Positions 13,940-32,658 of a stretch of DNA of 64,000 nt are shown piece by piece. The first letter of the stretch is position 1, and the number at the start of each line of letters is the position of its first letter. Under the pieces are notes generated by a model. The model had not been told where the DNA came from and did no database searches. It saw only the letters and a list, made by a program, of their open reading frames with translations. The translations under genes were made by a program, and so were the position numbers. The stretch comes from Deltaproteobacteria bacterium (GTDB lineage: Bacteria > Bdellovibrionota > FAC87 > UBA2466): positions 1 through 64,000 of the forward strand of contig JACPWY010000023.1 in the NCBI GenBank assembly GCA_016196825.1, written 5' to 3'.

Positions 13940-14761
13940 GTGGGCCCGTACCTTTCAGACACGCTCAAACGCCGCCTCGTCTTTCTCACCGGAAAGGGCG
14001 GCGTAGGAAAGACGACTCTGTCGTTGGCGCTTGCGACAGCAGCCCTCCGCCAAGGCGCCAAAGTCGCCATCGTTTCACTCAATCCCTTCGCTTCTGAGCC
14101 GCCCCCACCCTGCATTCCCTTCTACTCGCTTGAACCAGAGGGCTGCTTCCGCGAATACGCTCTCAAGATTCTCAGATTTGAAAGACTCTATACCAGTATC
14201 TTCGACAATAAGGTCCTTCGCACCTTCATTCGAGCCGCTCCTGGGCTATCCGACACGGTCATTGGTGGGAAGATCTGGGAGCTCGTCGACTCCCGCGTCC
14301 ATGACCTCTTGATAGTGGATCTCCCCTCCTCGGGCCACGCCGTCTCTTTTTTCCGATCTCCGCGCGGTGTCTCCCACATGTTCAAGCACGGCTTCGTCCA
14401 CGAGAAGGCGGAACGGATCAATACACTCTTCACCTCACCCGAAGCGCGAATCGATCTTGTGGTCACACCAACCGAGTTCTCCGTGACGGAAGCTCTAGAG
14501 CTCCGCACCAGCCTTCTGGGAATCGCAGCGCTCCCGCTTGGGTTTTGCCTTAGGAATCAACTCCTGCCCGATATTTCGATTGAGGAGAGCTCCTTGCAAA
14601 CCGTGACTCTGCTGAAAAGATCCTACGACACCCGTCGCCACCAAGAAGAAGGAGCACTCGCCGGACTGGCCGCCGTGGGATTGCCCTCGCTCGCCCTGCC
14701 CGTCATCCCCAACGGATTGAATCGAATCGGGGATCTCGCTGAGAGGCTATCGGTGGCATGA
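13940..14761 (+). CDS. ArsA/Get3-family ATPase, first of a tandem pair
   Basis: The 273-residue protein starts with GTG. The deviant Walker A of the ArsA/MinD class is FLTGKGGVGKTTLSLAL near residue 15. A switch-like LLIVDLPSSGHAV and the ArsA-type VVTPTEFSVTEA follow. ArsA proteins energise arsenite export, while Get3-like relatives target membrane proteins; no arsB or arsC is nearby. The pairing with a second ArsA-type gene suggests a heterodimer like the two halves of ArsA. The stop overlaps the next ATG (ATGA). Confidence 0.8.
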   Translation: MGPYLSDTLKRRLVFLTGKGGVGKTTLSLALATAALRQGAKVAIVSLNPFASEPPPPCIPFYSLEPEGCFREYALKILRFERLYTSIFDNKVLRTFIRAAPGLSDTVIGGKIWELVDSRVHDLLIVDLPSSGHAVSFFRSPRGVSHMFKHGFVHEKAERINTLFTSPEARIDLVVTPTEFSVTEALELRTSLLGIAALPLGFCLRNQLLPDISIEESSLQTVTLLKRSYDTRRHQEEGALAGLAAVGLPSLALPVIPNGLNRIGDLAERLSVA

Positions 14762-15789
14762 ATCCTGTCTTTCAATATTCACGCATTTTTCTAGTGGGCG
14801 GTCCGGGCGGAGTCGGTAAGACGACGCTGTCCGCGGCGCTCGCCGTTGCGCTCGCGGAAGGCGGCCACCCCACGCTCGTACTCACCGTCGACCCGGCCAA
14901 ACGGCTCGCGCAGGCCCTCGGCCTTAAGACGATTGAGAATAGCCTGACGCCGGTCCCTCTCGCCAACGGAAAGCTTTGGGCCAGCCAACTCCACACCGAC
15001 CGTTTTCTCGATGAACTTATCCACCGCATCGCCAAGGATCCCGACCAAGAACAGCGCATCTTTTCGAACCCTATCTACCAAACACTCTCGCGCGAATTAG
15101 GCGGAACCCAGGAATACGCCGCCATGGAGCGAATCCTGGAATTTGTGGATCAGTCCCAATACACCAAGATTGTCGTCGACACACCCCCGACCCAAAACGC
15201 ACTCGATCTGATCACCGCCCCTCGGCGGATGTTTGATTTCATGGACACCTCTGTCCTTAACTGGTTCTCGGGGAAAACCTCATTCGTAGCCGGACTGTTC
15301 GGACGAAGCACCCACCTCGCGCTCAAGGCGTTGCAAAGGATCTTTGGCAGCCATTTCTTCGATGCCTTCGAGCGATTCCTCAAGGACATCGACGGACTCC
15401 AGGCCGGCTTCCAGCGCCGCAATTTTGAACTCATGCGGCTTTTGAGATCCGATGCCTGCGCCTTCCTCCTCACCACGATCGCAACCGAAGAACGGGTCAA
15501 AGAGTGTTCCCTCGTCCAGACCGCCCTGACGGATGAGTCTATTGCTTTGCGAATGATTCTTCTCAACCAATTTGAACCTGAGCCCCCCTCCCTGACGGAT
15601 GAAGAGAGCCGCCAATGGCCGCGAGCCGCCCAGTGGTGGGCCCACCTCGCCGAGCTCCACGCCTCACAAGCAAGGGCCCGCGACCTTCTTCTCAAGCTTA
15701 AGACGCCTCTTGTTACCCTCAGTCGACTCGACGAGCCCCCCTCCTCGCTCACCGACCTTTCTTCTTTGGGGGCTCAGTTGATAGAATAG
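14758..15789 (+). CDS. ArsA/Get3-family ATPase, second of a tandem pair
   Basis: The 343-residue product has the signature VGGPGGVGKTTLSAALAV and then LTVDPAKRLAQALGL, the ArsA/Get3 switch region. IVVDTPPTQNALDLITAPRRM is the conserved DTxPT motif of the family. It overlaps the preceding ATPase gene by 4 bases. The sequence shows no arsenite-binding cysteine cluster, so a role like membrane-protein targeting or signalling is as likely as metal export. The HAMP protein follows 4 bases later. Confidence 0.85.
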   Translation: MNPVFQYSRIFLVGGPGGVGKTTLSAALAVALAEGGHPTLVLTVDPAKRLAQALGLKTIENSLTPVPLANGKLWASQLHTDRFLDELIHRIAKDPDQEQRIFSNPIYQTLSRELGGTQEYAAMERILEFVDQSQYTKIVVDTPPTQNALDLITAPRRMFDFMDTSVLNWFSGKTSFVAGLFGRSTHLALKALQRIFGSHFFDAFERFLKDIDGLQAGFQRRNFELMRLLRSDACAFLLTTIATEERVKECSLVQTALTDESIALRMILLNQFEPEPPSLTDEESRQWPRAAQWWAHLAELHASQARARDLLLKLKTPLVTLSRLDEPPSSLTDLSSLGAQLIE

Positions 15790-16264: not shown

Positions 16265-19200
16265 TTATTTTTTCTCGTTCTTGAAAAGCTTTCGGAAATC
16301 GCTCGGGGAATACTTCAGGCCTTCGAGATCGAGATAGCCGATATACGGGTCCTCCTGGGCCAGCTGCTCAAACCGCTTTCCCATATCCCAATCTCCTTCC
16401 CACCCATTGGCACGGACCATACCCGAGTACTCACAATCAGCCGCGATTTCCTTAAACTTATTGATAATCTCATCGACGTTGCCGTCCTCAAGGTCACCCA
16501 CACCGATCGTGTAACGATCCCACAATGCACGCGGAAACTTCTCGAGCGACTTATGAACCGCCTTGAGACCCGCCAGATAATCGGTGCCACCCAGGAGCTC
16601 GAACTTGAAAAACTCATCCTCGCTCTCGTGAATCTTCGCGCGCGTGTCAAATGTCACAAAACGAAACTCAACCTTGGGGTAGCGCTTCTTGAGAATAGTC
16701 TTCAGATCGTAGATCATCTTCTTGGCGACCATGAGCCGGTCACCACCCATCGATCCACTGCCATCCAGCATGAAGTGTACAACAGCGTTGATATCGGGAT
16801 CGGGCGTGACATCCTGATCGTCCACCCGCCAGTCGCCCGGCTCAAGATATCGAAAGCCAAGCCGCATCTGCTGAGCACGCGACATCTTCTTGACGTTCTC
16901 TCCTCCGCGCGTACGGGCCCGAATCAACGCGCGGCGGGCAATCTCATTCATGACGGCCTCGCCGTCGCGCCTCGCCACAGCCCCATCTTCAATCATGTCC
17001 TTCAACGGAGAAATGCCGCCTTTGGGCCTCAACCGGGGGAGCTCCACCTTTTCTGCCAAAAACTCCGCGTAGAGCTCAGGTGGAATCACAACCCAAGAGG
17101 GATCATTCGGGTCAAACCCCTGGCCGTCTGATGGATCCCCGGGGCGCCTTGGTCTTCCTTGATCCCCATCCTCGGGATCGCCATCGCCGTCCCCCACTCC
17201 ATCCCCATCACCTTGATCGTCTGGGCCCCAGATATTCTCACCCTCGTTCGCCTCGGTCTCGTTCAGGTTGTGGCCATCGTCCTCCGTGTAGGGATTCTCC
17301 ACTCGGCTAAAGAGCCAGCTCGGATTCCCCTGTGACATCTTAGCCCGACTCAGAACCTGCATGGCATTGCGGTCAAAGCGAAACTGCGGAATTTTCGGCA
17401 ATGCCTTCACGGCCACTCCTCGAGAGGTGCGGACGAATTGCCGCTTCCCCGTGAGCGCGTCAAGAAGGACCTTCGCAAGCCGACGATTCAGCTCGATGTT
17501 GTATCGCAAAATCGCCTCGGGCGCTGTCGGTGCGTGGAACATCATGCCCGTGGGTACTGAGTTAGCGGCCGCCGCGGCGATGGACCGAATCGTCGAATCT
17601 TTTACGGAACCATCCATCTCCCGACCGAAATCGATCTCTTGAACAAAGGTGTCGAGGCGTTTCTGGAAATCCTCCGTCAAAAATGTATTGGCTCTCCAAG
17701 CTGCCGGGGTTTCGACCTCTTCGCGTTTTCGTACTTCCACCCACTCAAGGACAGTGACCCGCCCCTGTGGGGTCACAACCACGCGGATGGGGCTTGTGGC
17801 GGGGACCTGCGGCTCGTCTTCCCAAGGAGGATAATACGGCGGGCCGAAGATGGGTTGTGTCGCAAAACGCTGAAAAAGGGTTTTACGCTCGTCCCATTGG
17901 CTGAATTTCACAGTGTCCAGCTGAGCTGGTTTTTCATTCGCTCGCGCATGGACCAGAAGCGTCGACACCATAGAATCCCGCTGAAGAGGAATCCCAGCCC
18001 CGAAGCTCCCCTCCGCAAAACCCAAAGCCACGTTCCCGGTTTCAGCGTCCGTATAGTCAGTGATGAGAACGCGTGGAAATGAGCGCTCGGAATCGGCCAG
18101 AGCCCGCGCGAGTTGGCGTCTCAACTGATCGGGGTCCTTCGAAACGACGCGGTGCTGCGTGCTATCTTCGTCCTTTTCCGGCGGCGGAAGATCGTGATCC
18201 CACTCATCCCAATTAGCCTTACGGGTAATCGCCAGCTTCTGTTCATGAAACCAGGTCTGATCCAGTGCGAAGAGAATCGTGTCGTATTGATCCCTTCTCT
18301 CGATCACCTCGTGGGTAACCCACTGAATAAACCGACGATCGCGCTCGATAGGCTCGAGCCGCTGGTTCTCACTGCGAGCATTGAACTGACGCCGTAGGTT
18401 CCGATAGAGCTCTCGCCCAAACCAATACGGGCTCCCGATGTTTTTAGCAGTAACCCCCGTGTGGAGCTCATGCATCTCAAGGCCCCATTTCAACGTACGA
18501 TACTTCTCGGGCAGATGTTCAACGGCCAGTTCCTGCATGATGGTCGCAAACCCTTCGTTGATAATCTTCGTTGGAATGGCGCCTGAATAATACCGAGTGA
18601 TCCGTTCAAAACGTTTTGCTAATTCCCGCTTCCAGACCGGCAACGTCCTAGGAAGGTTGGCAACATAGACCTGAAAAATGTTGGGTGAAGGACTGAGTGG
18701 AATCGAAACCCGCTTCCCGCGATTTTCCGGATCGAGAAAGAATCTGTCGGTAACCCTCTCGGGCTCAAATTCTTCGGGATTGCTATGGACGCCGCGGCTC
18801 ACATCTTGTGACCATGCCAGCGTATTCAGATACTGAATCCACAGGCTCACTTCGAGGGGGTCTTCGCTCGCAATCAATTTCTGAATGTAGCCTGCCAGCG
18901 CGTAGGATTCGGCCTGAACGTCGACCTCACTTTTTTGGTGAAGACGCGAGTGATGCATAAAATGGTAGTGACCCGCCACATGGAGAATAATCGAGAGCTG
19001 TTGTTCAAGAGGCAAAGTGTCTTTGTAAAACGACCTCAAGGGACAGTTACTGGGGCAGACAAATTCGAGAACTCCGCTTCCTCGCGTCAGGGATTGAATG
19101 ATGTTCGCTCCATCGAGCCAAAAGGGAAGAGCGTGGTGATTGTTGGCCACAAGGCAATTGATCTCGTTGCCCGGACAGAAATGCATGACGTGGTCGGGGT

Positions 19201-19417
19201 GATTGATCCCCAGTCGAGTGAGCACGCCTTTTGGTCCAAAGAGAACGCGGTTGATCTCGTTGAAATCCTCCAGGACGTCGGCATCGCGACCACTCGAGAT
19301 GATCTTTCCTTCCCCGGCAAAAAGGTGTTCGCCGCAGGTGCGTGCAGCATGCCCGGCCAACGCTCCGCCAGCCCCAAGTACACACGCCAGAAGGCAAAGG
19401 GTGTACAGCCTCGTCAT
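16265..19417 (-). CDS. Exported SpoVR-like / YeaH-like (DUF444) VWA fusion protein
   Basis: The product has about 1050 residues. A strong signal peptide (MTRLYTLCLLACVLGAGGALA) is followed by a cysteine-rich stretch (CPGNEINC, CPSNCP) that suggests disulfides. Residues about 140-390 match SpoVR/YcgB: IILHVAGHYHFMHHSRL parallels the conserved ACYGHNSFFKNNYLF, and TKIINEGFATIMQE and SPYWFGRELYRNL parallel its later motifs. An acidic low-complexity linker leads to a C-terminal YeaH/DUF444-like region with ELYAEFLAEKVELPRL and a VWA domain with an intact MIDAS (FMLDGSGSMGG, FVTFDTRAKIH, LLGGTDYLAGL). In other bacteria SpoVR and YeaH are separate cytoplasmic proteins working with PrkA. The ATG at 19417 overlaps the upstream stop (ATGA), fixing the start. 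Confidence 0.85.
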   Translation of the reverse strand: MTRLYTLCLLACVLGAGGALAGHAARTCGEHLFAGEGKIISSGRDADVLEDFNEINRVLFGPKGVLTRLGINHPDHVMHFCPGNEINCLVANNHHALPFWLDGANIIQSLTRGSGVLEFVCPSNCPLRSFYKDTLPLEQQLSIILHVAGHYHFMHHSRLHQKSEVDVQAESYALAGYIQKLIASEDPLEVSLWIQYLNTLAWSQDVSRGVHSNPEEFEPERVTDRFFLDPENRGKRVSIPLSPSPNIFQVYVANLPRTLPVWKRELAKRFERITRYYSGAIPTKIINEGFATIMQELAVEHLPEKYRTLKWGLEMHELHTGVTAKNIGSPYWFGRELYRNLRRQFNARSENQRLEPIERDRRFIQWVTHEVIERRDQYDTILFALDQTWFHEQKLAITRKANWDEWDHDLPPPEKDEDSTQHRVVSKDPDQLRRQLARALADSERSFPRVLITDYTDAETGNVALGFAEGSFGAGIPLQRDSMVSTLLVHARANEKPAQLDTVKFSQWDERKTLFQRFATQPIFGPPYYPPWEDEPQVPATSPIRVVVTPQGRVTVLEWVEVRKREEVETPAAWRANTFLTEDFQKRLDTFVQEIDFGREMDGSVKDSTIRSIAAAAANSVPTGMMFHAPTAPEAILRYNIELNRRLAKVLLDALTGKRQFVRTSRGVAVKALPKIPQFRFDRNAMQVLSRAKMSQGNPSWLFSRVENPYTEDDGHNLNETEANEGENIWGPDDQGDGDGVGDGDGDPEDGDQGRPRRPGDPSDGQGFDPNDPSWVVIPPELYAEFLAEKVELPRLRPKGGISPLKDMIEDGAVARRDGEAVMNEIARRALIRARTRGGENVKKMSRAQQMRLGFRYLEPGDWRVDDQDVTPDPDINAVVHFMLDGSGSMGGDRLMVAKKMIYDLKTILKKRYPKVEFRFVTFDTRAKIHESEDEFFKFELLGGTDYLAGLKAVHKSLEKFPRALWDRYTIGVGDLEDGNVDEIINKFKEIAADCEYSGMVRANGWEGDWDMGKRFEQLAQEDPYIGYLDLEGLKYSPSDFRKLFKNEKK

Positions 19418-22400
19418 ACGCCAGCCCCCGCAATCAATGCTGAGCATCGCTCGGGGCTCATGTCTCGTTTCTGACTTTTTCCACCCTCGTTCTGCAAGAA
19501 ACGCTCATTCAGGCTGTCAAATGTTTGCGTGATGGCATCCACCGTGGTGGGATTAAATGGGCTAAACCTGTTCCGAAAAAGATAGTTCTGAAATGTCTCC
19601 ATCTGACCTAGACTCGGATCGACGGCCGCTTCCTTCAGACGGTCCGAAACGAATCGGTTGAGGCGAGCCCAAGGGAATTCGAGCACTGCTCGGTCCATCG
19701 CCATCCAGAAGAAATGCGCCTGGTCATACGACGTCATTTGAGGGCGATCACCTAACATTTCCACGAGATTGGTGTCGAAGAGTTGCACACCCAATTGTCG
19801 ATAAATCGCAGCGAGTTGATCCCCCGCTAGAATGAGTAGCTGCTTCGGATCCTCGATCTCGAGCCTGTCAAACCACCCTTGCGACTGGGGCGAGAGAGAG
19901 TCGGAGCGGTAGAACGCGGCCGCCATCGGGACCAACGCTTCATAGATCTTCCGGGAGACCTCGGAGATCACGTCGGCCCGGTTAAACTGGCGATTCTCCT
20001 TAACCACCTTGCCCAGGAAATCGTCAACTCTCGGGAGCGTGTTCCCGTGCCGCGGGCCAAATTTCAACGGGAAAAAGTTGGCGTCGGCCTCGGCCCGAGA
20101 ATCAATGAGACGAAGAATAAAATCTCGCTCACCCGAATTACTCCCGCCAAAATCATCGGGTTCGATCTGAATCATTGAGAGCGGAATGTGGGGCTTCAGG
20201 TCATAATACTGAAACGCTGAAAGAAAGAGAGGCACCAGCATATTGCGCCTCATCATCCTGTCGACGCTCAACGAAGGATCGCGCCGCGCCCCCTGAAGGG
20301 CCGCGTGGGCAGCGTGCATCCTAAAGGCGTCAACATTGAGCTGAATCCACTCGAGTTGGTTGCCGTACTCCTTGTCGGAGACCGGCTTGATCACCCTGTG
20401 TTCCTTTACATACGCCTCGACCCGGTCGCCTTCTGTGTCAAAAACCTGTTCACCCCAATCCTTGGCGCGCGCCTCGGAAGCCAAATAGACAGGCGCATCG
20501 GGCACATCGCCATCCAGCTGAATGAGACCACGGGAGGCTGCGGTCAGGAACTCGCGTGCGTTGGCCTTTCTGTTGCCCGTCACGACGGACTTGAGAAGCC
20601 CTGGGGTCACCACGACGATATGGGGATTCGCGCGGTAGTCCTCTTCCTGGGCTCTGCGCACCTCTTTCACCAGTGCGGGGGCCCTGGCTTCGAGCGGAAA
20701 TTCACTCATATCGATGATCGTGCTCCAGCGCGCTAAAAAGGAATCCTCCACGGAGTAATCGCTCCTCGCCAAAGCGGCGAGAATCTCACCCGTGAGATCA
20801 CCTTCGGCCGCGTATCGGTCTCGGATCTCCTGATCTCGCTTTGGGTTAATGGTGAGAAAGAGGTTCAAGTTGCGGACGGGAATTTCGCGTCGTTCGGTTT
20901 TTCCCCTCTTCTTCACCGTAATGTAGCCTTCCTTGGCCTCAAACAAAGACTCAATGAAGGCCATAATCTTAGTGTAGATGGGCGTCGACTTCGCGAGATG
21001 AATGTCATCAAAAAGAAGGAACGCCCGGTGACCACGTGGCCCCGCCAAGAAGTTACTGATGTTCTCGAGCTCCTGGTCAACTCCGCGGCTGTCCGGGGCG
21101 GCGGGATCTTCCTTTTCCCGAAGGTTACGCACCTTCACGATGTAGTAGTCCGCCTCCTCGTTGTCGGCGACATCAGGGTCGTATTGCTTGAGGCCGAGGT
21201 ACTGCATGAGGACCTCAAAAAGATAAGTCTTGCCGGTCGATGTGCCACCAAAGAGAATCGTTGAACTCGGAATCGGCCGCCCTGGTGTCGATCCGTGAGT
21301 CTGGCCCAAGATGGAATCGATAACGCGAATCTTGAGGTCAATAGCGCTGTCATAACCCAGATTCTGAATCGCCACGCCCGCTTTCACGGGATCCTTGAGT
21401 TTGTGGAGAGGATCGGTGGGGGGCAATGCGTTCAGGGCGATGGGAACAGGGAAAACTCGGGCGAAAAGGCTCTCCACGAAATACTTATCAATTTTCTTTT
21501 CCGCCCGCAGACGGGAATCCGATGTCAAAGTGCGAGAGAGTTCCGCATAGGCCCGAATGAAGGCAGCGGTTTCATCGATATCATGTTGCCGCGCAATTTG
21601 ACTCGCGCGGTTCACAATCAGACTCACAATCTGATTCTGGGCCTCGGCACCAACGATACTCTCCAATTGGTATTCGTACCCATACCGCTTGATGAAATCC
21701 TTATTGAAGAGAGAGCTCACAAGATCAAGCCGCCGCTTCAAAGAGGGCGCCTCTAGTCGGACGATTTCAAACTGGTTCGCCAGACCGAACCGACTCTCCC
21801 ACTCCGTTTCACTTTGAAGAATGGTCCAATCTCGTTCGCTGCCGATGAAAAGTGAGTTGATGGACGGTGACATCCCCAGCTTCTTTTCAAAAACCTTGGG
21901 TTGAATCTTCCTCCCCTCCGTCGCAATCCACCATAAAGCATGGGGGACGCGGGAACGGTCAGTCTCAGTGTTGCCTTCCAGAGAGCTTCCGCTGGTGCGT
22001 ATCCCATGATCTTTAATCGTGAAGGTATTGTCGGGAACCGCGGCCATGGGGCGGCCAATTCGAAGGAGTTCATCGAGGGCCCCAATGAGCACCGGCCGAC
22101 GATCAATTGCTATGGCCCTCATGGAGTCAAAATTATCCAATATGTCTTCCTGCTTTAGGTCCCGTGTCTCACCCTCCTTGGCACCATTCAGTATCCGTGT
22201 CGCGTAGAAGAGGCTGAGTGCGGGGTTATGGTGGTTCCAAGGCCCCATGAGGGAACGGGAATCCGATGCCCATCGAGTCAAGACCAACTTGTCCAATAAC
22301 GCCTTGATCTCGTCAGGAACAATGAGTATCCGGCGTTTGGGGGACTTTCCAAGATCCACTATGTCCCCAAGAAGGGCCTCAAGGTCCGGAAAGACCTCAT

Positions 22401-25400
22401 GCTCCTCTTTTGAGGTCGCGGCCCTGTTCAGAGCCTTGGTCAGTTTCGAAGCCCGTTCGGTTCCGGGGTTCCAAAGAGTCCATGAAGAGCTGAGCACATC
22501 GCCATTAACCCTGTAGCGGGAGAAGGCCGCCGCTTCACGCGGAAAGATTTCCTGGGCCACCCGCCACTCTTCCGGAGTCGCGACAACGATCGAAGGAAAA
22601 CTGGGGATTTCCGCCATACCGGCCATTCGTTCGGGTTTCAGGTCCTCTCCCCCTGTGGCCAAAAGGAGAAGCGGCGACCCGTGAACTTTCTTCACGGTAT
22701 CACTGCCCTCATCGAAAAACTCATCCTCGGCTAGGGACCCATCGGCGTCGTCAGAGTCATCCCCAGCTTTCGATTCGTCTTCCTTGGCGGCCTTCTTCTC
22801 TTCTTCTTCCGCTGGATCTTCTTGATCGGCATCCTCTTCTGTCGCTGGAGGCTCCTCTCCCCCGGAACTGATTGCCTTTGCCACTGACCGTCGATTCTTG
22901 TCCGCAATCCTCTGGCGCGCATCCTTCGGCAGAACCTTTTCAATATCGACAACCAAAAGACTTCGCCGTTTTGAGGTGTTGTCCGCCCTGATTTTTCGCG
23001 CTTCTTCGGCAAACTGCTCGTTCGACACCCCTTGTTCCGTTGCCTCGTGATAATAAAAGTGCTGCGCGTGGCGAGAGGAGAAGCTCCACGGTCCACTTCG
23101 GTTCGTCACAAGGCGCGTTCGCATGCGTTGAAGCACGTTTGCCTTCATCGTGGGATCCACGAGGAGAAGCGTTGGCCCGTGAAAACCATCCATGGCTGCC
23201 GCCCTATCCAAAAAGTCATCCAGCGCGGGAAATCCTTTATCCGACTCCTTTTCTTCGTGATCCTTAAGGGCCTTTTCCGTATCGGGGAAAGCGCTAGTCA
23301 GTGCAAACTCTCCCAAAATGAGCCAATCGCTCCCTCCGAGGAGTGCGCCCCAGTTTGTCTCAAGAGACTCCTCCCAACGAAGTGCGACCGTGCTCCCAGC
23401 CCGTCGTGGATAGACCTTTTCGGCGGGGTTTTGGAGACTCTTTACAGCAAAGCGAGTCTCGGTGTTTGCCAAAGCGGGATCGTCAATCCAGAACCAACTT
23501 CCCGAGCCATCCGGCATCAGACGGTCCTTAATGGTCGCAATCGGCACGCTCTCTCGCTCTAACCATCCGGGCCCCCCAACCTCCTTAACCAAAAGGCGTT
23601 TGGGCGCAAAGTGATAAGCAAATTCCAAATTGAAGTTCTGAACGAGAACCCCGCCCGTTTTTTCAATCCCCCGGGAGGCACTTTTGGATCCATCGAGGAA
23701 TACTAGTACGCTCATCTGGAATGCACTCTTACGCCGACCCAAAACGATCTTCGCGCCACGGAGGTTTTCAAACGGAGCGGGAACTGTGAACGAAAAGGTG
23801 GTACCGAAAAAATCGCTCTCGGGGTTGGCGACACCAACAATGCGAAACTCCTTGGATCCCCCTTTGCGGCTGACATCAGGATTAACCGCAAGGATCCGGA
23901 AGTGGGCGGAGGGGTTCCCCGCAAAAGCCTTGCTCGCGTCGTCGTCAAGAAAGACAGATCGCTTTTTCTTTTTTAGCAGGAGTCCGGGGACAAACGCAGG
24001 CTTTTCGTCGCCTAGGTCAACATAGAGGCCGGTTCTGATTTCAGTGGCCCCCGTGGGATCGTATTCCTCAAAAAGAATGTCAGGGGCCACCTGAAGCCGG
24101 GCAACTGAAAAGAGGTAATCCTGCTTTCCAGTCAGAAGATCCGTGTATGGTGTCGTCCTTTCGGTCTTCGGATCGTAACGACGACTCTGGATCACGGGCG
24201 TGACCATATCGTACAAAACTTGCGTCGGATCATCGTCCTCACTCGGCCCATGAGGAATCAGTCGGGCCCTCAGCTCTTTGGCATCCACAAACCTATCGAA
24301 AATCTCGGTCTTATTGACGACATTCAGGTGCTGCCCCGCCTCGTCAATTGTCATGCAGATTGTCTTTGAGGACATCGCAGTCTTCTGGGAGATCAAGAGA
24401 AAATGCTTGTGCGGGTGAAAATGATGATGAACAAAAGAAAATTTCTGCCGGCGATCCGGGGTGTCTATTCCCAGATCGACAAATCCGACATTGTCATGGT
24501 CCCCCCCGATGGGAAGGGCCGCCCAGAGACGACCGGCACGGGAGAGAATCACAGCGTTGTGTTCATCTGCGTCTTTTTCCGAATACGTGTAGGCGATGGG
24601 ATTGCCGTCGTCGTCGAAATCGACCGTTCCCTGAATGCCAACGGCCTGCCCATTCACCGCATTGGCCCCCGTTGCAATCACCGCATTTCCCGTGATCGGG
24701 TTAAAATGCTGGCGGAATGCCAACGGCTCTTCCATCAAAAACTGATCGGGCACTTCCAGGATATCGACGCCCCCCGTGATAACGTCGAACAGAGGCACCC
24801 TGGAAACCAGACTCTGCTTTTCCCTATTGATGGCTTGAGACGGATTGGGGTTAGCGATGAGCCGCGAATACTTTTTCACCTGTTCGCGCCACAAAGTGAT
24901 GAGCGGAAAGTCATGCCGTTGAGGAGCGCTATAGGCGCGCAAGAGTTGCTGAGACACAATATTCGAACCGTTTCGAGTGTGAAGTTGCGCCAGCCCTTTC
25001 GAGTCGAGAAACGCGTAATCGATTACGGAGATATCACTCACCACTGGAAGACTCGCGTTTGAGCTTTGGGAGACAATGAGCGCCAGCGTGAAACCATCAC
25101 CCAACGCGTTCCTGCTCTTGGTGGAGAGAAGAATCAGCTCGCCATAGCCAAAGTCCCCGTGTAGCTGAAGCGACTGCAAACTGACCTCTGAGGTGCTCTG
25201 TATCAAGGGCAGCTGAACGGGCCGCTTGGTGAGAATATCAACGGCCTTATCGCGCTGAGAGCCGATCTCAACATAGGTGTCGCGATTGCCGGCTTTTGTC
25301 TGAGTTGAGAATATGACGATGCGCCCGTCCACAATTGCCATTGCCTCTTCCCGGCCGGTCACGGCTCCTAAATGGAAGGCACTCAAAACGCCCGAGAACG

Positions 25401-25623
25401 TGGCCGATGCTCCCACAACGTTCCCCTTCAGAATCAGCGCGCCCGGGCCTTTGTCATCGACCTTGTAAATGCCGGGCGCCTTGTTTGTGTCGGGTGCGTC
25501 GCTTGCGTAAACAACCAGATACGGATTGCGGTTCCCTGTCCCGCGAACGAGGTGGGTCGAATTCCCCCAGAGCAGGTTTCCGAGACTCAGCAGGGGGATG
25601 AGAATGTGGAGTGTGTGCACCAC
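19414..25623 (-). CDS. Giant exported Clp-like AAA+ protein (2069 residues)
   Basis: The GTG start follows AGGGGG. A signal peptide is likely (MVHTLHILIPLLSLGNLLWG). Residues 20 to about 780 are unassigned. Two related modules without a P-loop follow, near residues 796-895 and 1077-1190, each with F-P-x-L-x-x-x-L, a hydrophobic V-D/V-P-D strand and a G-P-W...H...L/F-Y-x-A-T tail; a highly acidic segment (about 920-965) separates them. The C-terminal AAA+ domain has Walker A FGGTSTGKT (about 1457), Walker B AFLLFDDIH (about 1534), sensor LFLTINPKRD and DSFLARW. The arrangement of a degenerate first ring domain and an active second one recalls ClpB/ClpA. The gene lies between the PrkA-like and SpoVR/VWA genes, with spacing of 16 bp and a 4-bp overlap, so the three probably act together. 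Confidence 0.8.
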   Translation of the reverse strand: MVHTLHILIPLLSLGNLLWGNSTHLVRGTGNRNPYLVVYASDAPDTNKAPGIYKVDDKGPGALILKGNVVGASATFSGVLSAFHLGAVTGREEAMAIVDGRIVIFSTQTKAGNRDTYVEIGSQRDKAVDILTKRPVQLPLIQSTSEVSLQSLQLHGDFGYGELILLSTKSRNALGDGFTLALIVSQSSNASLPVVSDISVIDYAFLDSKGLAQLHTRNGSNIVSQQLLRAYSAPQRHDFPLITLWREQVKKYSRLIANPNPSQAINREKQSLVSRVPLFDVITGGVDILEVPDQFLMEEPLAFRQHFNPITGNAVIATGANAVNGQAVGIQGTVDFDDDGNPIAYTYSEKDADEHNAVILSRAGRLWAALPIGGDHDNVGFVDLGIDTPDRRQKFSFVHHHFHPHKHFLLISQKTAMSSKTICMTIDEAGQHLNVVNKTEIFDRFVDAKELRARLIPHGPSEDDDPTQVLYDMVTPVIQSRRYDPKTERTTPYTDLLTGKQDYLFSVARLQVAPDILFEEYDPTGATEIRTGLYVDLGDEKPAFVPGLLLKKKKRSVFLDDDASKAFAGNPSAHFRILAVNPDVSRKGGSKEFRIVGVANPESDFFGTTFSFTVPAPFENLRGAKIVLGRRKSAFQMSVLVFLDGSKSASRGIEKTGGVLVQNFNLEFAYHFAPKRLLVKEVGGPGWLERESVPIATIKDRLMPDGSGSWFWIDDPALANTETRFAVKSLQNPAEKVYPRRAGSTVALRWEESLETNWGALLGGSDWLILGEFALTSAFPDTEKALKDHEEKESDKGFPALDDFLDRAAAMDGFHGPTLLLVDPTMKANVLQRMRTRLVTNRSGPWSFSSRHAQHFYYHEATEQGVSNEQFAEEARKIRADNTSKRRSLLVVDIEKVLPKDARQRIADKNRRSVAKAISSGGEEPPATEEDADQEDPAEEEEKKAAKEDESKAGDDSDDADGSLAEDEFFDEGSDTVKKVHGSPLLLLATGGEDLKPERMAGMAEIPSFPSIVVATPEEWRVAQEIFPREAAAFSRYRVNGDVLSSSWTLWNPGTERASKLTKALNRAATSKEEHEVFPDLEALLGDIVDLGKSPKRRILIVPDEIKALLDKLVLTRWASDSRSLMGPWNHHNPALSLFYATRILNGAKEGETRDLKQEDILDNFDSMRAIAIDRRPVLIGALDELLRIGRPMAAVPDNTFTIKDHGIRTSGSSLEGNTETDRSRVPHALWWIATEGRKIQPKVFEKKLGMSPSINSLFIGSERDWTILQSETEWESRFGLANQFEIVRLEAPSLKRRLDLVSSLFNKDFIKRYGYEYQLESIVGAEAQNQIVSLIVNRASQIARQHDIDETAAFIRAYAELSRTLTSDSRLRAEKKIDKYFVESLFARVFPVPIALNALPPTDPLHKLKDPVKAGVAIQNLGYDSAIDLKIRVIDSILGQTHGSTPGRPIPSSTILFGGTSTGKTYLFEVLMQYLGLKQYDPDVADNEEADYYIVKVRNLREKEDPAAPDSRGVDQELENISNFLAGPRGHRAFLLFDDIHLAKSTPIYTKIMAFIESLFEAKEGYITVKKRGKTERREIPVRNLNLFLTINPKRDQEIRDRYAAEGDLTGEILAALARSDYSVEDSFLARWSTIIDMSEFPLEARAPALVKEVRRAQEEDYRANPHIVVVTPGLLKSVVTGNRKANAREFLTAASRGLIQLDGDVPDAPVYLASEARAKDWGEQVFDTEGDRVEAYVKEHRVIKPVSDKEYGNQLEWIQLNVDAFRMHAAHAALQGARRDPSLSVDRMMRRNMLVPLFLSAFQYYDLKPHIPLSMIQIEPDDFGGSNSGERDFILRLIDSRAEADANFFPLKFGPRHGNTLPRVDDFLGKVVKENRQFNRADVISEVSRKIYEALVPMAAAFYRSDSLSPQSQGWFDRLEIEDPKQLLILAGDQLAAIYRQLGVQLFDTNLVEMLGDRPQMTSYDQAHFFWMAMDRAVLEFPWARLNRFVSDRLKEAAVDPSLGQMETFQNYLFRNRFSPFNPTTVDAITQTFDSLNERFLQNEGGKSQKRDMSPERCSALIAGAGV

Positions 25624-25639
25624 GCAGAGTCCCCCTCTC

Positions 25640-28078
25640 TTATTTATCCCCCTCGCGCCGTTCCTGATCCCGCATCAGGTCGCGCGCCATGGAGATCGCC
25701 TCGAGAAGCGCCCGCTGGTTGTAGCCATGCTGGGTCATCTCGGACTTCGCGCGATCGGCTGCTCGTCGCACCGTCTCGGGGCCCGTCGCCGTTTCGAAGT
25801 AGTGCAGATATTGATCCAATGCATTCGCACTGATCTCCGTCCGATAGAGCCAGGTCTGGATGGCATTCAGCAGGCCGGGGTGACGGTCTTCCGGCTTTCG
25901 CCCGGGCACCAGCTTGAAGGAAGCGACTTCGCCCGGCTCCAGGGAGCGGCCGGTGAGATCCTTGTAGCTCTTTTTGATCTTGTCCAACCGGTCGAATTCA
26001 ATATCGACCAGATTGTTGTTCCCAGTGGCATCCCGCTTTTGGGCATCCTGGTTTTGGAACAGCGTGATCAACTCAGCTTCAATCTCGGCGTACAGACTAT
26101 CGACATCGGTGCGCTGAGACAGAAGTGTCAACACATCACTTGTTAGGGCCGGAAGAAGGAGACCGGCCTTCACCTGATTGTTGAGGCTGATCCACTGAGC
26201 CCTCACGTCCATTGTCTTGTTGAGGAAGTCCTTGCGGTCCATGAGCTTCTCAAACACCGCATTGGCAAGCGCCGGCGTCAGAGTGGATTCGTTGCGGCCG
26301 GCCCTTGCCAGCGCAGCCAAGAACCAGGTTTGGGAAGAACGGGCCGAGATCCCTTCTGAACCTTCGTTCAGGAGATCCTTCACTTTGTTCAGCTCCGTTC
26401 GAAGCGCATCGCTTGCCGGCAATTGGCCCAGAATCACCTGCAAACGGGTAACGGGACTCGTGAACTCATTGGAATTGTTCCCAAGAATGTCAAACTCACT
26501 GACGAACTTGACCAAGGAGGACGGGCTCGTCACGAGACGAGTCGCGGCAGCCGTGGCCCCCAGAAGGAAGAGGGTTCTCGGCGCAACGAGGACGTTCTGG
26601 CCGGATCCCAATTTACAATGGATCGAATAGCGACCATCGATATCCGGGAACTTCGAGTTATCGTCCACCTCTGGAAAAATGACGTTCACGTCGGCCGGCT
26701 CCGGCTTGGCATTCTTCTTCGAAAGATCGGTCATCGTGAACTTGCCCGGACCCCACTCCTGCATCGCCATGGCCAGGATGACCTTGGCGTTTTGGTACGG
26801 GTTAATCGTCAGACGCATCGGGAGGTTGGCACCCCGATCGAGCTGTGCGCCGGCGGCCCCTTCGTCTTTGGCCTTGTCTTTGCTTTCATCGTTGTCCGCG
26901 AGGATCGCGAACGCGTCGACTGTCACGGCCTTCGCTCCGCCACGCTGAACAACGCGGTTTTGACTGAATTCCAAAGTAGCGTCTCGGAAGCTCACAATTT
27001 GACGAAAGAATTCGTCGAAGAAGGCTCCGAATCCGTCGGCCTGGAGAATGAGACCCGAGTAGTCGTAGCTTAAGGGATTGCCCACGCCGTAGACGAGCTT
27101 ACGAGCCGGATCCTCGGCCATGAAGAGGTTAGACCAATCGATGTTGCGGCCCTGGTTGCGCACGAAGACCGGCGGCTGATCGGGATCAACCACGAATCGG
27201 TAGATCTCAACATGTCTGGAGATTGCGGATAGGTACTCCATCTGCGTAGGGGCCTTGCCCGGGTAATAGAATGCAATTATGCGCTCGATGATCTCTTTGG
27301 TGTGCGGATCGCGGATCAGGAACGGGTGCGGCTCAAAGCCAGTCAATCGCTCCGCCGCGGGGGTCGCGAGCTCCACGACAGCTTTTTGCATCTCCTTTGT
27401 GAGCAGCACAATGGGTGATCTCCCCATCTGGTGGTAAAACGGCTCATCCTGCTGAGTGGGGTCCTGGAGCGGCTCCAAAGATGGAATGTCTTTCAGATTC
27501 TTCCAGCGGAATCGGAACTCCCAGAAGTCGGGGTTTTCATAAGACAGAATCGCCCTCCGAAGATGAAGCACCTTGAGGAGCTCCGTCTTCCCGGTGCCGG
27601 CAGGCCCCGTCAGCGACAACACCTTGGCCGGGCTTGAGCCCGAGGCACCTTCGCGGAGGAAAGTCACAACGTTATCAACTGGGACGTACTGGCCAAAAAT
27701 CTGGGGGCCGTTGGGGCTGACTGGCGTGGCGAACGCGTTCCATAGGTTCACCTGCTCCACCCGAAAGTCGGGCTCCAGGATCGTGCGGTGACCGTAATGG
27801 TTAATGATAGCCCACGCCTTCTGGTAGGCGTTCCATACGATTGAGGGGTGGCGAAGCGCAATATTCTTTTTGGGGTCGTTAGAGAGCAAATCCTCGAGGG
27901 TATAGACCTGCCCAAGGAAGTCGAACTCCGAGACTGAGGCTCCTGGCTCAACCAGAAGAAGGTCCCCACACTGGGTCAAACTCACGGGTCTGGCCCCCTT
28001 ACCCGCTTGCCCCGCTTTTCCCGCCCCCATCGAAAGCACCGAAACCAAAAGACTTAGGACGATGATGTTCCCAACCAC
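25640..28078 (-). CDS. Exported PrkA-like AAA+ protein
   Basis: The 812-residue product starts with GTG preceded by AAGGGG. A signal peptide is likely (MVGNIIVLSLLVSVLSMGAGKAG). The AAA+ core has Walker A LTGPAGTGKTELLK (G158-T165), and the PrkA-specific region YDYSGLILQADGFGAFFDEFFRQ aligns with the GALCRANQGIMEFVEMFK motif of E. coli YeaG/PrkA. Further PrkA features are HPFLIRDP, reminiscent of HPFCLFDP, and the order of domains. PrkA is known as a cytoplasmic AAA+ kinase or protease-like ATPase acting with YeaH and SpoVR. Here it heads an operon with a Clp-like protein and a SpoVR/YeaH fusion. If translation began instead at M17 the signal peptide would be lost, but the upstream ribosome site favours the long form. 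Confidence 0.8.
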   Translation of the reverse strand: MVGNIIVLSLLVSVLSMGAGKAGQAGKGARPVSLTQCGDLLLVEPGASVSEFDFLGQVYTLEDLLSNDPKKNIALRHPSIVWNAYQKAWAIINHYGHRTILEPDFRVEQVNLWNAFATPVSPNGPQIFGQYVPVDNVVTFLREGASGSSPAKVLSLTGPAGTGKTELLKVLHLRRAILSYENPDFWEFRFRWKNLKDIPSLEPLQDPTQQDEPFYHQMGRSPIVLLTKEMQKAVVELATPAAERLTGFEPHPFLIRDPHTKEIIERIIAFYYPGKAPTQMEYLSAISRHVEIYRFVVDPDQPPVFVRNQGRNIDWSNLFMAEDPARKLVYGVGNPLSYDYSGLILQADGFGAFFDEFFRQIVSFRDATLEFSQNRVVQRGGAKAVTVDAFAILADNDESKDKAKDEGAAGAQLDRGANLPMRLTINPYQNAKVILAMAMQEWGPGKFTMTDLSKKNAKPEPADVNVIFPEVDDNSKFPDIDGRYSIHCKLGSGQNVLVAPRTLFLLGATAAATRLVTSPSSLVKFVSEFDILGNNSNEFTSPVTRLQVILGQLPASDALRTELNKVKDLLNEGSEGISARSSQTWFLAALARAGRNESTLTPALANAVFEKLMDRKDFLNKTMDVRAQWISLNNQVKAGLLLPALTSDVLTLLSQRTDVDSLYAEIEAELITLFQNQDAQKRDATGNNNLVDIEFDRLDKIKKSYKDLTGRSLEPGEVASFKLVPGRKPEDRHPGLLNAIQTWLYRTEISANALDQYLHYFETATGPETVRRAADRAKSEMTQHGYNQRALLEAISMARDLMRDQERREGDK

Positions 28079-28553: not shown

Positions 28554-30671
28554 ATGCTCGTGGATAAGACCACCTATTTTTTTGAAGATCACGTCGCCAG
28601 AGACTGGTTCCGTGTCTCCACTGGGATTTCGTCCCCGCCAACGCAGGTCTTGACCGAATTCCTTCTTTCACGCGCAGAACAGGCGCCTCTGCCGCGGACT
28701 GAGCGACTAGCCCTTTTGACGGAAATGCTACCAACCTCCGAGCGGCCCCGTGCCGGCCTTTACCTGGAAACGATCGAGCAGCTGCGCGAGACCTTCATCC
28801 TTCTGCCCGAACATGTGGAGCATTGTTTTTCTCTTCTTTCCCCTAGCCCTAAGAACATCCTCCTTCAGGCGTTGCTTCATGCCTATTTTTCTACTGAGCT
28901 TTCTCGCGATCCTGTAGCTCTGGCGTGGGAGGCCATTGGGCAGCTGAAGGCCTCTCGAGACCGTCTCTTCGGCGAGGTGATCTTTGTGCGATCGCTTGAG
29001 CCTTCTCTGATTTTTTCGGAACTCGCAACAGCGTTCCGCAACGTGAGTGAAAGCGTGACTGAAATTGAGCTCGCTGGTTTGGGGGACCATTCCAGTGCCG
29101 ACACCCATCACATGACCGGAACAGAGGCAGTCCGAATGGAGCACCTGGCCGACCAAGCCCGCCGAGCGATTTCCGACGGAAAAAAACAGGTACTCGTTCC
29201 CTTTTGTGGTGAGGATCACCATCGGCATTCGCTCGAGGTGATTCTCGCCTCAAGAGGTCTGACCGTTTCGCTTCTGCCGCAACCATCCCAACGCCCAGAC
29301 CACCCCCTGAAGCATTGGCGGCAGGCTCCGTTTCCTATTCTCGACAGACTCAAGATTCATGCGCTCGCGTTACTCAACCCCGATCGTGAGGCACGCGATC
29401 CCCGGTGGAACGATTATTGGGGACAATGCCGAGCTCAAAACGCGATTAGCGAAGCCCAGCGGGGGTGGCTGTGCGAATCGGAAGTTCCCCCTGCTTCCTT
29501 CGAAACGCTTTCTCCCAAGGTGGGGGATGTGGTCATCGGGCCATTTCTCATTCCGCCCGAGCGACCCTTTTCGGAGATTCTTCCTCTACTCGCAGATGAT
29601 CCGTTTCGTCAGAAGCGATCCACGCTATTGCGCGAGGATGAACGCAATCACCTCATTCGTCAGGGTTTTCCGCTGCCCAGTCGCACCGATTTCCGGGCTC
29701 GAGTCGTGGCCCAGTGCGGTCTCGCAAGCACTCTCTTTGCTCCGCCGGATTGGGGGCTCTGTCCCCACATTGAGCCAACCGCGCTTGCGCCGGTCGTGAA
29801 TCGCACCCTGGCCCCGAACGACGGAAATCTTTCTCTCCCAGAGCGCCCCCTTTCCGCCACTGCCCTTCAAAACTATTCCCGGTGTCCGTCGATCTACCTC
29901 TACTCCAATCGCCTGAAGCTCCGCGACGCTTCGGCCATTGATCCCAATGGCTTTGCTCTTCTGCTGGGGGATGCAACCCACCGAACCCTGGAGAATTTCT
30001 TTCGCCAGAGTGAGCGATCGTTTGATGACCTCAACGGTCTTTTCCTGAACACAGTGAAAACGGCGCACCCCACATTACCCGACTCACACCCTACGATGAC
30101 GCGCTTGAGGGCGCGCTTCAAAAGGATAGCCGCCGAGGTCCCGCAGATCGAAAAGCAGTTGGCGGCCATTTTAGGGCCAACGACACCAGACAGTCTTGAG
30201 ATGCCATTTGAAGCGGTGGTGGGTGGCGTTCGGGCTCGCGGGAAGATCGACAGGATTGATCGCACCCCCGACAATCGATTTGTTCTTCTCGACTACAAGA
30301 CGGGGACGGTCGATTTTTCTCCGAACCACATCGAGAGCGGGGAGGATTTTCAAGTGCCGCTCTACCTTTTTGGAACTGAGTCATTGCCATCGGTGATTGG
30401 ATTTCTATTTTATGATCTTAAGAAGGGCGAAGTGCGCCGAGGCCTCTTGAAGGAAGAGCTCGTCCCAAAGGAGGCGAAGGGCCTCTTAACCCGGGGACAT
30501 GTTGTCTCGCCCGAGAAGTTTGAACGAATCATGGCTACCAGTCGCGATCACATCGCTCGCATTGCTGGGCTCATCGCTCAAGGCAACTTTGTTCCCACTC
30601 CCTCCTGTGCGAGTTGCCAGAGTTGCCAGTTTGGAACCCTTTGTCGGAGGCGGCATGGCACTGACGGGTGA
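28554..30671 (+). CDS. AddB-like PD-(D/E)XK nuclease with a cysteine cluster
   Basis: The product is 705 residues. The C-terminal third is the RecB/AddB nuclease: LSATALQNYSRCPSIYLY (first cysteine), LGDATHRTLENFF, GKIDRIDRTPDNRFVLLDYKTG (the D...D-Y-K catalytic core) and a terminal CASCQSCQFGTLC. The spaced cysteines resemble those that hold a [4Fe-4S] staple in AddB. It is much shorter than classical AddB (over 1100 residues), so the inactive-helicase part is reduced. The gene overlaps the UvrD-like helicase downstream by 17 bases, making a compact AddAB-like pair for double-strand break processing. Confidence 0.8.
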   Translation: MLVDKTTYFFEDHVARDWFRVSTGISSPPTQVLTEFLLSRAEQAPLPRTERLALLTEMLPTSERPRAGLYLETIEQLRETFILLPEHVEHCFSLLSPSPKNILLQALLHAYFSTELSRDPVALAWEAIGQLKASRDRLFGEVIFVRSLEPSLIFSELATAFRNVSESVTEIELAGLGDHSSADTHHMTGTEAVRMEHLADQARRAISDGKKQVLVPFCGEDHHRHSLEVILASRGLTVSLLPQPSQRPDHPLKHWRQAPFPILDRLKIHALALLNPDREARDPRWNDYWGQCRAQNAISEAQRGWLCESEVPPASFETLSPKVGDVVIGPFLIPPERPFSEILPLLADDPFRQKRSTLLREDERNHLIRQGFPLPSRTDFRARVVAQCGLASTLFAPPDWGLCPHIEPTALAPVVNRTLAPNDGNLSLPERPLSATALQNYSRCPSIYLYSNRLKLRDASAIDPNGFALLLGDATHRTLENFFRQSERSFDDLNGLFLNTVKTAHPTLPDSHPTMTRLRARFKRIAAEVPQIEKQLAAILGPTTPDSLEMPFEAVVGGVRARGKIDRIDRTPDNRFVLLDYKTGTVDFSPNHIESGEDFQVPLYLFGTESLPSVIGFLFYDLKKGEVRRGLLKEELVPKEAKGLLTRGHVVSPEKFERIMATSRDHIARIAGLIAQGNFVPTPSCASCQSCQFGTLCRRRHGTDG

Positions 30672-32658
30672 GCAGCAGGCGGCCATTGAGGCACAGGGGC
30701 CGGTGGGCCTTGTCGCGGGAGCCGGCAGCGGCAAGACCTCGGTGCTCGCGGGCCGCTACATTCGTCTCGTGAAGGCCGGGATCTCTCCTCACGCTATTCT
30801 GACCGTCACCTTCACCACCGACGCCGCAGAGGAGCTGCGGTCGCGGATCATTGCCCAGCTGACTCATGAAGGGCTTGAGGAAATGGTCCTGACAGCGCAA
30901 GCTACCTCCTCCATCGGCACCATCCACAGCTTTTGCTACCGAGTACTGGACGCACATGGCTCCACGGTGGGAGTTCCATCGATTGAGGCGATTCTCGACG
31001 TGGCCCAATGGCACGCGGTTTTGGGAGAGGAATACCGGCGCTGGCTCAGAGAGACATCGCCGGAGGTGCTTGAGCGCCTCGACGATCGCTTTGGACTGGA
31101 GATCGTCAAGGAGATCGCGGCGAAATTCTATCGCGAGCATGGAGTCACGGCCGCACCATCCTCATTCGAAGGCGAACTTTGGAACGACCTCACAGCGGCC
31201 ATCAATCCGCTCATCGATCGACTGGAGACTCGACTCAGGAGATCCGGTCTTTATAGTTTTGACGATCTTGAGTTTTACTGCGAACAGGTTCTGGGCACTT
31301 CGCCGAGTGTCAGGGAGCACCTGCGCAGGCAATACGCCGCCGTCCTCGTTGATGAATTCCAGGACACGAGCCGGCGCCAGCTTCGCATTTTGGAGAACCT
31401 CGTTGGTGACGCTCCCCACAAATTTTTCTTCGTGGGCGACCCCAAACAATCGATCTACCGCTTCCGTCAGGCGGAGGCGGCTCTGTTTTCTGAACAGATG
31501 GCCCGGCTTCCGCAGAGTAGTGGCATTGCGCTGGCGCTCACCTACAACTTTCGCTCCCGGGCTGAGCTCCTCGTTCCGCTCAACACCTATTCGGCAGCGC
31601 ACTTCCCCAACTCTTCGATGCTTCCGGGACGTGAAGCATCCGCTGAACTGCATCTCCACGAACCCCTGGCTGTGCGACGATATTCGGCAGGTCAGAATCG
31701 AGCAGAGATTGCGACCTCAGAGAACAAAGCCATCGTGCAAGAGATCTTGCGCCTTGTCGATCGAGGGGTGGAACCCAAGGACATCGCGATTCTGTGTCGG
31801 ACCAATTCGCCCATTGGGGAAGTGAAAGCACAGATCGAACGGGCGGGGATATCTGTCAGTTGCGAACGCACGGCTCGGCTGGACGAATCCTATATCTGTC
31901 TGGATGTCTTTGCGTTTCTCAACGCCCTCTTGAATCCTCTTGATGATCTGGCATTCGCAGCCGTTCTGAGGGGACCTCTGGTCGGTTACAAACTTGAGGA
32001 GCTGTGGAGGTTATCATCGCAAGTGGGTGACTCCCTTTTCGAAAAGAGTCTCAAAGGACAGGATGATCGGGTGACCTGGTTCCATTCGCTTGTTGAGTCT
32101 GATGAATGGGATCTGAGGGTCGCTCTCTCCTTGGCATTTGGAAGACTGGGATCGGTGCCGAACGCAACAGCAGCCCTCTCGCTGCTCAACACCCTATTTG
32201 CTCATTGTGGAGATGTTCCCAGCGCGGTTTTTCTTCTGGGGGAGAGCTTAGAAGAGGGCCTGCTCTATTCGTGCGACGACCGGCATCCGAATGGTGTCAT
32301 CCTTTCAACGGTCCATGCGGCCAAGGGCCTTGAGTTCCCCCACGTGTTTATTATTGACTGTCTGAGGCAGCCGCCCACCCGGCGACCCGTGTACGCGCTT
32401 GATCGAGATGGCTTTCCTGCCCTTCGCTGGCGAGAAAAAGGAGAATGGATTGAGAGCGAGCGTTACCAACTTCTGATGAATGAGGACCGCACCCTCGAGG
32501 ATGGGGAATCGCTCCGCATCCTTTATGTTGCCCTCACTCGGGCTCGGGAGAGTCTGACGATCTTCTTACCAGAAGAGCGCAACAAACTGCCCAAGAGAAG
32601 TTGGGCGGCAACCCTCAATCCACTCCTAGATTCACTCCCTACGCTGCAACCGAAATAA
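30655..32658 (+). CDS. UvrD/AddA-like superfamily 1A DNA helicase
   Basis: The protein has 667 residues counted from the ATG at 30655, which begins exactly at the family start LTGEQQAAIEAQGP. Motif I is VAGAGSGKTSVLAGRYIRL, motif Ia TFTTDAAEELRSRI, motif II VDEFQDTSRRQL, motif III FVGDPKQSIYRFRQA, motif IV LTYNFRSRAELL, motif V STVHAAKGLEFPHVFI and motif VI LYVALTRARESL. The C-terminal nuclease of AddA is absent, so nuclease activity would come from the preceding AddB-like protein. The longer frame starting at 30499 overlaps the upstream gene and is not credible. Confidence 0.9.
   Translation: MALTGEQQAAIEAQGPVGLVAGAGSGKTSVLAGRYIRLVKAGISPHAILTVTFTTDAAEELRSRIIAQLTHEGLEEMVLTAQATSSIGTIHSFCYRVLDAHGSTVGVPSIEAILDVAQWHAVLGEEYRRWLRETSPEVLERLDDRFGLEIVKEIAAKFYREHGVTAAPSSFEGELWNDLTAAINPLIDRLETRLRRSGLYSFDDLEFYCEQVLGTSPSVREHLRRQYAAVLVDEFQDTSRRQLRILENLVGDAPHKFFFVGDPKQSIYRFRQAEAALFSEQMARLPQSSGIALALTYNFRSRAELLVPLNTYSAAHFPNSSMLPGREASAELHLHEPLAVRRYSAGQNRAEIATSENKAIVQEILRLVDRGVEPKDIAILCRTNSPIGEVKAQIERAGISVSCERTARLDESYICLDVFAFLNALLNPLDDLAFAAVLRGPLVGYKLEELWRLSSQVGDSLFEKSLKGQDDRVTWFHSLVESDEWDLRVALSLAFGRLGSVPNATAALSLLNTLFAHCGDVPSAVFLLGESLEEGLLYSCDDRHPNGVILSTVHAAKGLEFPHVFIIDCLRQPPTRRPVYALDRDGFPALRWREKGEWIESERYQLLMNEDRTLEDGESLRILYVALTRARESLTIFLPEERNKLPKRSWAATLNPLLDSLPTLQPK

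Follow-up and report, generated by a model that had tools for sequence, protein, structure and literature searches.

The 64,000-nucleotide stretch of DNA analysed here, referred to as the window, belongs to a 3.54 Mb assembly of 74 contigs from a member of Bdellovibrionota. It contains a three-gene operon, located entirely on the minus strand, that encodes a PrkA-type AAA+ ATPase (PrkA-X), a giant Clp-like AAA+ protein and a fusion of SpoVR with YeaH (SpoVR-YeaH-X). Each of the three proteins opens with a signal-peptide-like hydrophobic segment and has no other segment of transmembrane strength. This observation, made in the initial annotation, is confirmed by our analysis, and to it are added a Cys tag shared by the three proteins, an ordinary operon of the same kind coexisting in the genome, and a second exported AAA+ machine. 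We think it probable, though far from certain, that the trio is an exported, Cys-tethered AAA+/VWA machine for protein remodelling, working where ATP is present, possibly in a prey or host compartment.

Operon layout and protein modules

The gene for PrkA-X (812 aa, GTG start; 25640..28078) is followed after a gap of 16 bp by the Clp-like gene (2069 aa, GTG start; 19414..25623). The stop of the latter is overlapped by 4 bp by the ATG (in ATGA) at position 19417, from which the fusion is counted (1050 aa; 16265..19417); these and all features of the operon given below are on the minus strand. The tight arrangement described initially, in its coordinates and in its spacing, is thus recovered. 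Both GTG starts are preceded by Shine-Dalgarno-like purine runs. The mechanical ORF of the fusion extends over 16265-19447 (1060 aa), and its start most likely corresponds to ATG 19417 rather than to 19447, located 30 bp upstream. Neighbours of the operon in the window encode a nuclease, a helicase, an adenine deaminase and ArsA-like proteins, none of them common to other loci. The PD-(D/E)XK nuclease and UvrD-type helicase genes overlap, are AddAB-like, and adjoin the operon on the opposite strand (28554-32658), while two ArsA-type ATPase genes form an adjacent pair (13940-15789). Comparison of the operon with PADLOC models of anti-phage defence gave no match, only P-loop-level noise.

Assignment of the first gene is based on its ORF, on profile-profile comparison and on family scores. 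Alignment of the PrkA-X family with that of canonical PrkA by hhalign pairs residues 49-808 with 18-690 (probability 100, E=8e-51), and homology is full-length, including the C-terminal domain. The segment 25640-28078, previously noted as PrkA-like, can therefore be described as a divergent full-length PrkA. In a search through 369 genomes of the phylum, PrkA-X members score 567-1017 bits, and canonical PrkA at most 144, apart from one fragment at 268. In the Pfam search, PF06798 (PrkA C-terminal) remained below threshold with 16.9 bits (cut-off 25) and PF08298 gave no match; NCBIfam agrees with this picture, and a PDB search by sequence alone found nothing. The Walker A motif G158-PAGTGK-T165 (27584..27607; K164 in 17/17) and the Walker B motif D355-E356 (27011..27016; E356 in 17/17, D355 in 16/17) are both recognizable. 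All 17 homologues retain the Walker A Lys and Walker B Glu, as well as a sensor Asn and an Arg.

Sequence searches with the Clp-like protein disclosed no relative in Pfam, NCBIfam or PDB, and hhalign of its family against PrkA indicated similarity at the P-loop level only. AlphaFold2 models of its two halves were built from 14-15 sequences. The model of residues 25-850 (pLDDT 73.5, pTM 0.48) is almost all beta, and Foldseek returned weak matches to DDB1-type propellers (TM ~0.1). On these models, the N-terminal half (approximately residues 25-770; 23314..25551) appears beta-rich and possibly propeller-like, the fold class being tentative. An acidic low-complexity linker, modelled with low pLDDT, is found at approximately residues 905-985 (22669..22911). 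For residues 880-2069 (pLDDT 77.8, pTM 0.59), the top Foldseek matches are ClpA, ClpC and ClpB (lowest E 1.1e-13, probability 1.00), in agreement with a double AAA fold, with low chain-level TM (0.40 by target). The designation of the middle gene as Clp-like, which has no support from sequence profiles, is in this way borne out by the predicted fold.

The Clp/Hsp100-like region (approximately residues 1080-1900; 19924..22386) comprises a first module without a P-loop and a second one with intact motifs. These are Walker A G1459-GTSTGK-T1466 (21226..21249; K1465 in 26/26) and the acidic Walker B pair D1539-D1540 (21004..21009; 25/25 and 26/26), and no exception was found at the Walker A Lys, the DD pair, a sensor Asn and an Arg (25-26 of 25-26). 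Because the P-loop at 1459 is the single one in the protein, instead of the two intact P-loops of Hsp100, the first AAA-like module is probably inactive. Likeness to ClpA, ClpC and ClpB lies in the predicted double AAA of the C-terminal half and in the motifs of its second module. The protein differs from them in the lack of an Hsp100 profile match, the first module without a P-loop, the beta-rich N-terminal half and the signal peptide, and no ClpP partner was seen.

In the third protein, both SpoVR (PF04293, 42.8 bits; 18305..19006) and the VWA-type domain of YeaH/DUF444 (PF04285, 83.8 bits; 16322..16909) exceed the Pfam cut-off of 27. In hhalign, the fusion family matches SpoVR (E=2e-49) and, further on, YeaH from residue 86 of the latter (E=4e-43). 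The YeaH part is fused behind SpoVR, without the N-terminal region of its own that a stand-alone YeaH has. These values substantiate the earlier reading of 16265-19417 as a SpoVR-YeaH fusion. Conserved motifs in the SpoVR part are HxxGH (18968..18982; H156 and H160 in 29/29, both His invariant also in canonical SpoVR) and NEG with its invariant Glu (18551..18559; E298 in 29/29). The final His of NEGWATFWH, found in 60/60 canonical SpoVR sequences, is not retained in those exported sequences that were inspected. The MIDAS motif DGSGS (16751..16765; D895 and S899 in 26/26) is accompanied by its partners T955 (24/26) and D985 (26/26).

With the PrkA/YeaG-YeaH(YhbH)-YcgB/SpoVR module the trio thus shares full-length homology to PrkA, SpoVR and YeaH as well as gene company, and it keeps the MIDAS and HxxxH motifs and, of NEGWATFWH, the NEG. 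It differs from this module in export, in the fusion of SpoVR with YeaH, in the extra Clp-like subunit, in a low Cys content with a terminal tag, and in coexisting with a canonical operon.

Signal peptides and the cysteine tag

Signal peptides are predicted at approximately residues 1-24 of PrkA-X (28007..28078, boundary approximate), at approximately residues 1-20 of the Clp-like protein (25564..25623) and, from start choice and hydrophobicity, at the beginning of the fusion (MTRLYTLCLLACVLGAGGALAGHA; 19346..19417). The N-terminus supplies the hydrophobicity maximum in nearly all 5'-complete homologues, and segments of transmembrane strength are almost absent from the rest of the chain. According to a hydrophobicity heuristic, a hydrophobic N-terminus characterizes 27/28, 25/31 and 28/33 evaluable members of the three families, and those that fail are fragments or borderline in value. 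The same heuristic applied to canonical relatives selected 2/52 PrkA, 0/62 YeaH and 1/60 SpoVR sequences (3/174 in total). Judged by this heuristic, the proteins have the form expected for Sec export, an N-terminal signal peptide with no further transmembrane segment, and PrkA-X departs from cytoplasmic PrkA, which has no signal peptide. The claim that all members look exported is hence supported.

The exported sets are in addition poor in Cys, with 1.8, 1.5 and 2.4 residues per 1000 aa as opposed to 9.4, 6.2 and 9.4 in canonical relatives, a depletion of about four-fold; neighbouring genes have about 12 per 1000 residues. Such depletion may represent a signature of an oxidising compartment.

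In most members of these three unrelated proteins, one terminal Cys is placed in a common motif, C-(E/D)-x-hydrophobic-L/F. The tag is N-terminal in PrkA-X (C37-G-D-L-L; 27956..27970), where Cys follows the signal peptide in 25/29 homologues, one of the four misses (L071) being a start-choice artefact with the Cys present. It is N-terminal also in the fusion (CGEHLF; 19319..19336; Cys in 27/27 in the alignment and in 29/30 in the tag scan). In the Clp-like protein it is C-terminal (C2060-S-A-L-I; 19432..19446), in 25/30 homologues at a distance of 6-22 residues from the C-terminus. Among 79 instances of the tag in the trio, position +1 is Glu or Asp in 47%, +3 is hydrophobic in 81%, and +4 is a Leu/Phe/Ile-type hydrophobic residue in 94%. 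A conserved Cys near the terminus of an exported protein is reminiscent of lipoproteins and of MYXO-CTERM or GlyGly-CTERM proteins. A lipobox has its Cys at +1; most members have no lipobox, and the tag Cys mostly lies several residues beyond the point where cleavage is likely. The C-terminal version has neither a transmembrane helix nor a basic tail, and an NCBIfam search of sorting-signal models of the MYXO-CTERM and GlyGly-CTERM type gave no match.

Retention of the Cys varies among loci. The clade of L089, L090 and L092 lost it from PrkA-X and the Clp-like protein, and the fusion keeps it in 2/3. In genus g116, which has no Clp-like gene, PrkA-X and the fusion both retain it. Given these patterns, simple pairwise disulfide models were not adopted. 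The Clp-like protein of genome G226 (L185 1-3843, L186) has no C-terminal tag and carries CDSLF after the signal peptide instead.

The possibility that the tag is specific to the operon was rejected after genome scans found it on other exported proteins. With the operon family removed, the Cys of single-Cys proteins is terminal in 29/42 exported versus 14/63 cytoplasmic ones (p=2e-6), and among these terminal Cys the motif is found in 10/29 versus 0/14; these counts refer to partial samples of three operon genomes and flanking loci, and to a motif defined after the operon had been seen. The motif is found in 12/31 versus 0/20 once lipobox Cys are excluded and an operon-less genome is included. 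As an illustration, in the genome of the window, the only Cys of an exported alpha-amylase-type enzyme (L211:10889-12940, contig C74) belongs to the tag CVDLL right after the signal peptide. Tagged exported enzymes of cytoplasmic type include an M3 peptidase (L250:10800-12758), a member of the zinc-type dehydrogenase family (L253:7333-8439) and a member of the epimerase family (L252:18990-19922). In genome G144, the operon is flanked by two tagged exported ClpX/ClpA-like (AAA_2) ATPases (L069:1935-3200 and L069:16665-17990).

A further exported protein, of 1275 aa, combines two AAA modules with an M41 (FtsH-type) domain (2xAAA-FtsH; L242:9519-13343, contig C4 of genome G263), and its family (L258-L283, about 1300 aa) is present in 26/369 genomes of the phylum. 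The C-terminal Cys tag was detected in 25/25 members with their own C-terminus, and beyond residue 60 there are on average 1.4 Cys. The operon is also present in 9 of the 26 genomes (enrichment p=4e-5). The M41 peptidase domain is shared with canonical FtsH, from which the protein differs in being soluble and exported, with two AAA modules of the ClpB/AAA_2 type, a C-terminal Cys tag and no transmembrane segment beyond the signal peptide. These data provide independent support for the Cys tag and for exported AAA+ machines.

Distribution and coinheritance

Among the 369 genomes of the phylum, the fusion is found in 29 (about 8%), the Clp-like gene in 27, each of them also a carrier of the fusion, and PrkA-X in 26, together with one fragment; nearly all carriers are MAGs. 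Absent genes correspond mostly to contig ends or decayed loci. The exception is genus g116 (G273, G277; L056/L085, L080/L094), in which the Clp-like gene is missing and PrkA-X directly adjoins the fusion, and the Clp-like gene is for this reason not strictly required. In every other complete locus the order of the three genes is constant and the flanks are unrelated. The three-gene linkage, which the initial annotation proposed to survey in relatives, thus holds across other genomes of the phylum. The three proteins diverge in a correlated manner (r = 0.70, 0.84 and 0.73; 0/5000 permutations).

When GTDB genomes were scanned with an alignment, the matches came only from Bdellovibrionales, Bacteriovoracaceae, Oligoflexales and a few MAGs with odd names, before a sharp drop to canonical modules; a single-sequence scan of genome contigs gave nothing. 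One carrier MAG labelled Bradymonadales belongs to the phylum of the window according to its contig. A match in a Cyanobacteria MAG (L103) was ruled out as an exported trio by its separate genes and by the lack of a Clp-like gene. Some loci deviate in copy number or integrity. A tandem duplicate of the fusion is located downstream of the Clp-like gene in L057:2-5641, genomes G292, G342 and G289 apparently have two operon copies each, and one copy (L083, G287) is split into several ORFs and is apparently decaying or badly assembled.

Possible setting of the exported machine

From their co-occurrence, correlated divergence and shared Cys tag, we infer that the three proteins form one physical machine. 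They would be exported by Sec via their signal peptides, and the Cys tags could tether the parts mutually or to a common partner, through a disulfide or through thiol docking. PrkA-X would assemble into an AAA+ ring, and the Clp-like protein would be an unfoldase in which the beta-rich half recruits the substrate prior to its unfolding or threading. The YeaH-type VWA/MIDAS domain may act as an adaptor that grips the substrate or plugs the ring, by analogy with NorD and NorQ, and SpoVR, with its HxxGH and Glu, might provide a second site for substrate contact or for metal. The NorQ/NorD pair of AAA+ and VWA proteins remodels protein clients via the MIDAS site (PMC9976466). MoxR pairs such as NorQ/NorD and RavA/ViaA resemble the operon in coupling an AAA+ motor to a MIDAS VWA adaptor (PMC9976466), and differ from it in that their AAA+ protein is MoxR-type and cytoplasmic, whereas that of the operon is PrkA-type.

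Invariance of catalytic residues in both motors, at 20-35% overall identity, argues for working ATPases, and both are predicted from these motifs to be ATPase-competent. An ATP-driven machine would have to act where ATP exists. AAA+ motors are treated as cytoplasmic (or organellar) on the assumption of an ATP-free bacterial periplasm. No ATP supply is known there, and no transporter or ATP source was found. A literature word search for secreted or periplasmic AAA+ proteins gave no paper, subscription journals being outside its coverage. Bdellovibrionota is a phylum with many predators, and we would guess that the machine most naturally operates in a prey or host compartment.

Co-inherited exported AAA+ motors with intact catalytic residues would contradict the view of an ATP-free periplasm or imply delivery into another cell, and a categorically new exported ATP-dependent system is a live possibility. 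Tentatively, and with a little less than even confidence, we suggest that Bdellovibrionota have a new class of exported ATP- (perhaps NAD(P)-) dependent machinery with a terminal C-x-x-hydrophobic-hydrophobic tag, acting in an ATP-containing extracytoplasmic or foreign compartment and including the PrkA/Clp/SpoVR-YeaH trio and the soluble 2xAAA-FtsH. If this is true, the Cys tag would be a new protein-sorting or tethering signal, and in any case it is a compact candidate for such a signal on proteins with no other relationship. The finding also offers a setting for asking about the partners, substrate and energy source of the poorly understood PrkA-YeaH-SpoVR module.

A more specific proposal is that the machine is delivered past the envelope into the cytosol of the prey or host, with its ATP and reducing conditions, and that the tag serves as a signal for export or as a carrier signal and is released there. 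Delivery would solve the ATP problem, and it fits with the other tagged exported proteins, including cytoplasmic-type enzymes and a second AAA+ protease, and with carriers among Bdellovibrionales, Bacteriovoracaceae, Oligoflexales and related MAGs of a predator-rich phylum. However, there is no linkage to a secretion system, flanking genes are not conserved, only 29/369 genomes have the operon, and Sec export plus a second step is demanding for a 2000-residue AAA+ protein; we regard this proposal as rather unlikely.

Loss of the P-loop from the first AAA-like module of the Clp-like protein, and the weakened motifs of canonical PrkA itself, could also indicate an exported complex that works independently of ATP, with AAA+ folds as scaffolds and P-loops as relics. 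This seems improbable, since Walker A and B are more classical and fuller in PrkA-X than in cytoplasmic PrkA, and neither motor shows variation in its Walker A Lys, Walker B acid, sensor Asn or Arg despite low overall identity.

Another way to supply ATP would be to keep the AAA+ domains in the cytoplasm by an uncleaved N-terminal signal anchor, and the segments of PrkA-X and the Clp-like protein in the window, which have no Lys or Arg at the start, are compatible with it. In most homologues, however, Lys or Arg precedes the hydrophobic core and orients the C-terminal part outward. Cys depletion and the occurrence of the tag on unrelated exported proteins also speak against an anchor, which we consider distinctly improbable, and the genome of the window already has a canonical operon for the cytoplasmic role.

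Finally, the operon could be a divergent but otherwise ordinary paralogue of the cytoplasmic starvation module, without any special location. This would account for the clear homology to PrkA, SpoVR and YeaH, but is highly improbable considering signal peptides in nearly all members versus 3/174 canonical ones, sharply bimodal PrkA search scores, the co-inherited Clp-like gene and the canonical operon in the same genome. This ordinary prkA-yeaH-spoVR operon is located on contig C8. A search of the genome with PF08298 revealed one true canonical PrkA and three further matches, the length and match extent of which suggest P-loops of Lon or Clp type.
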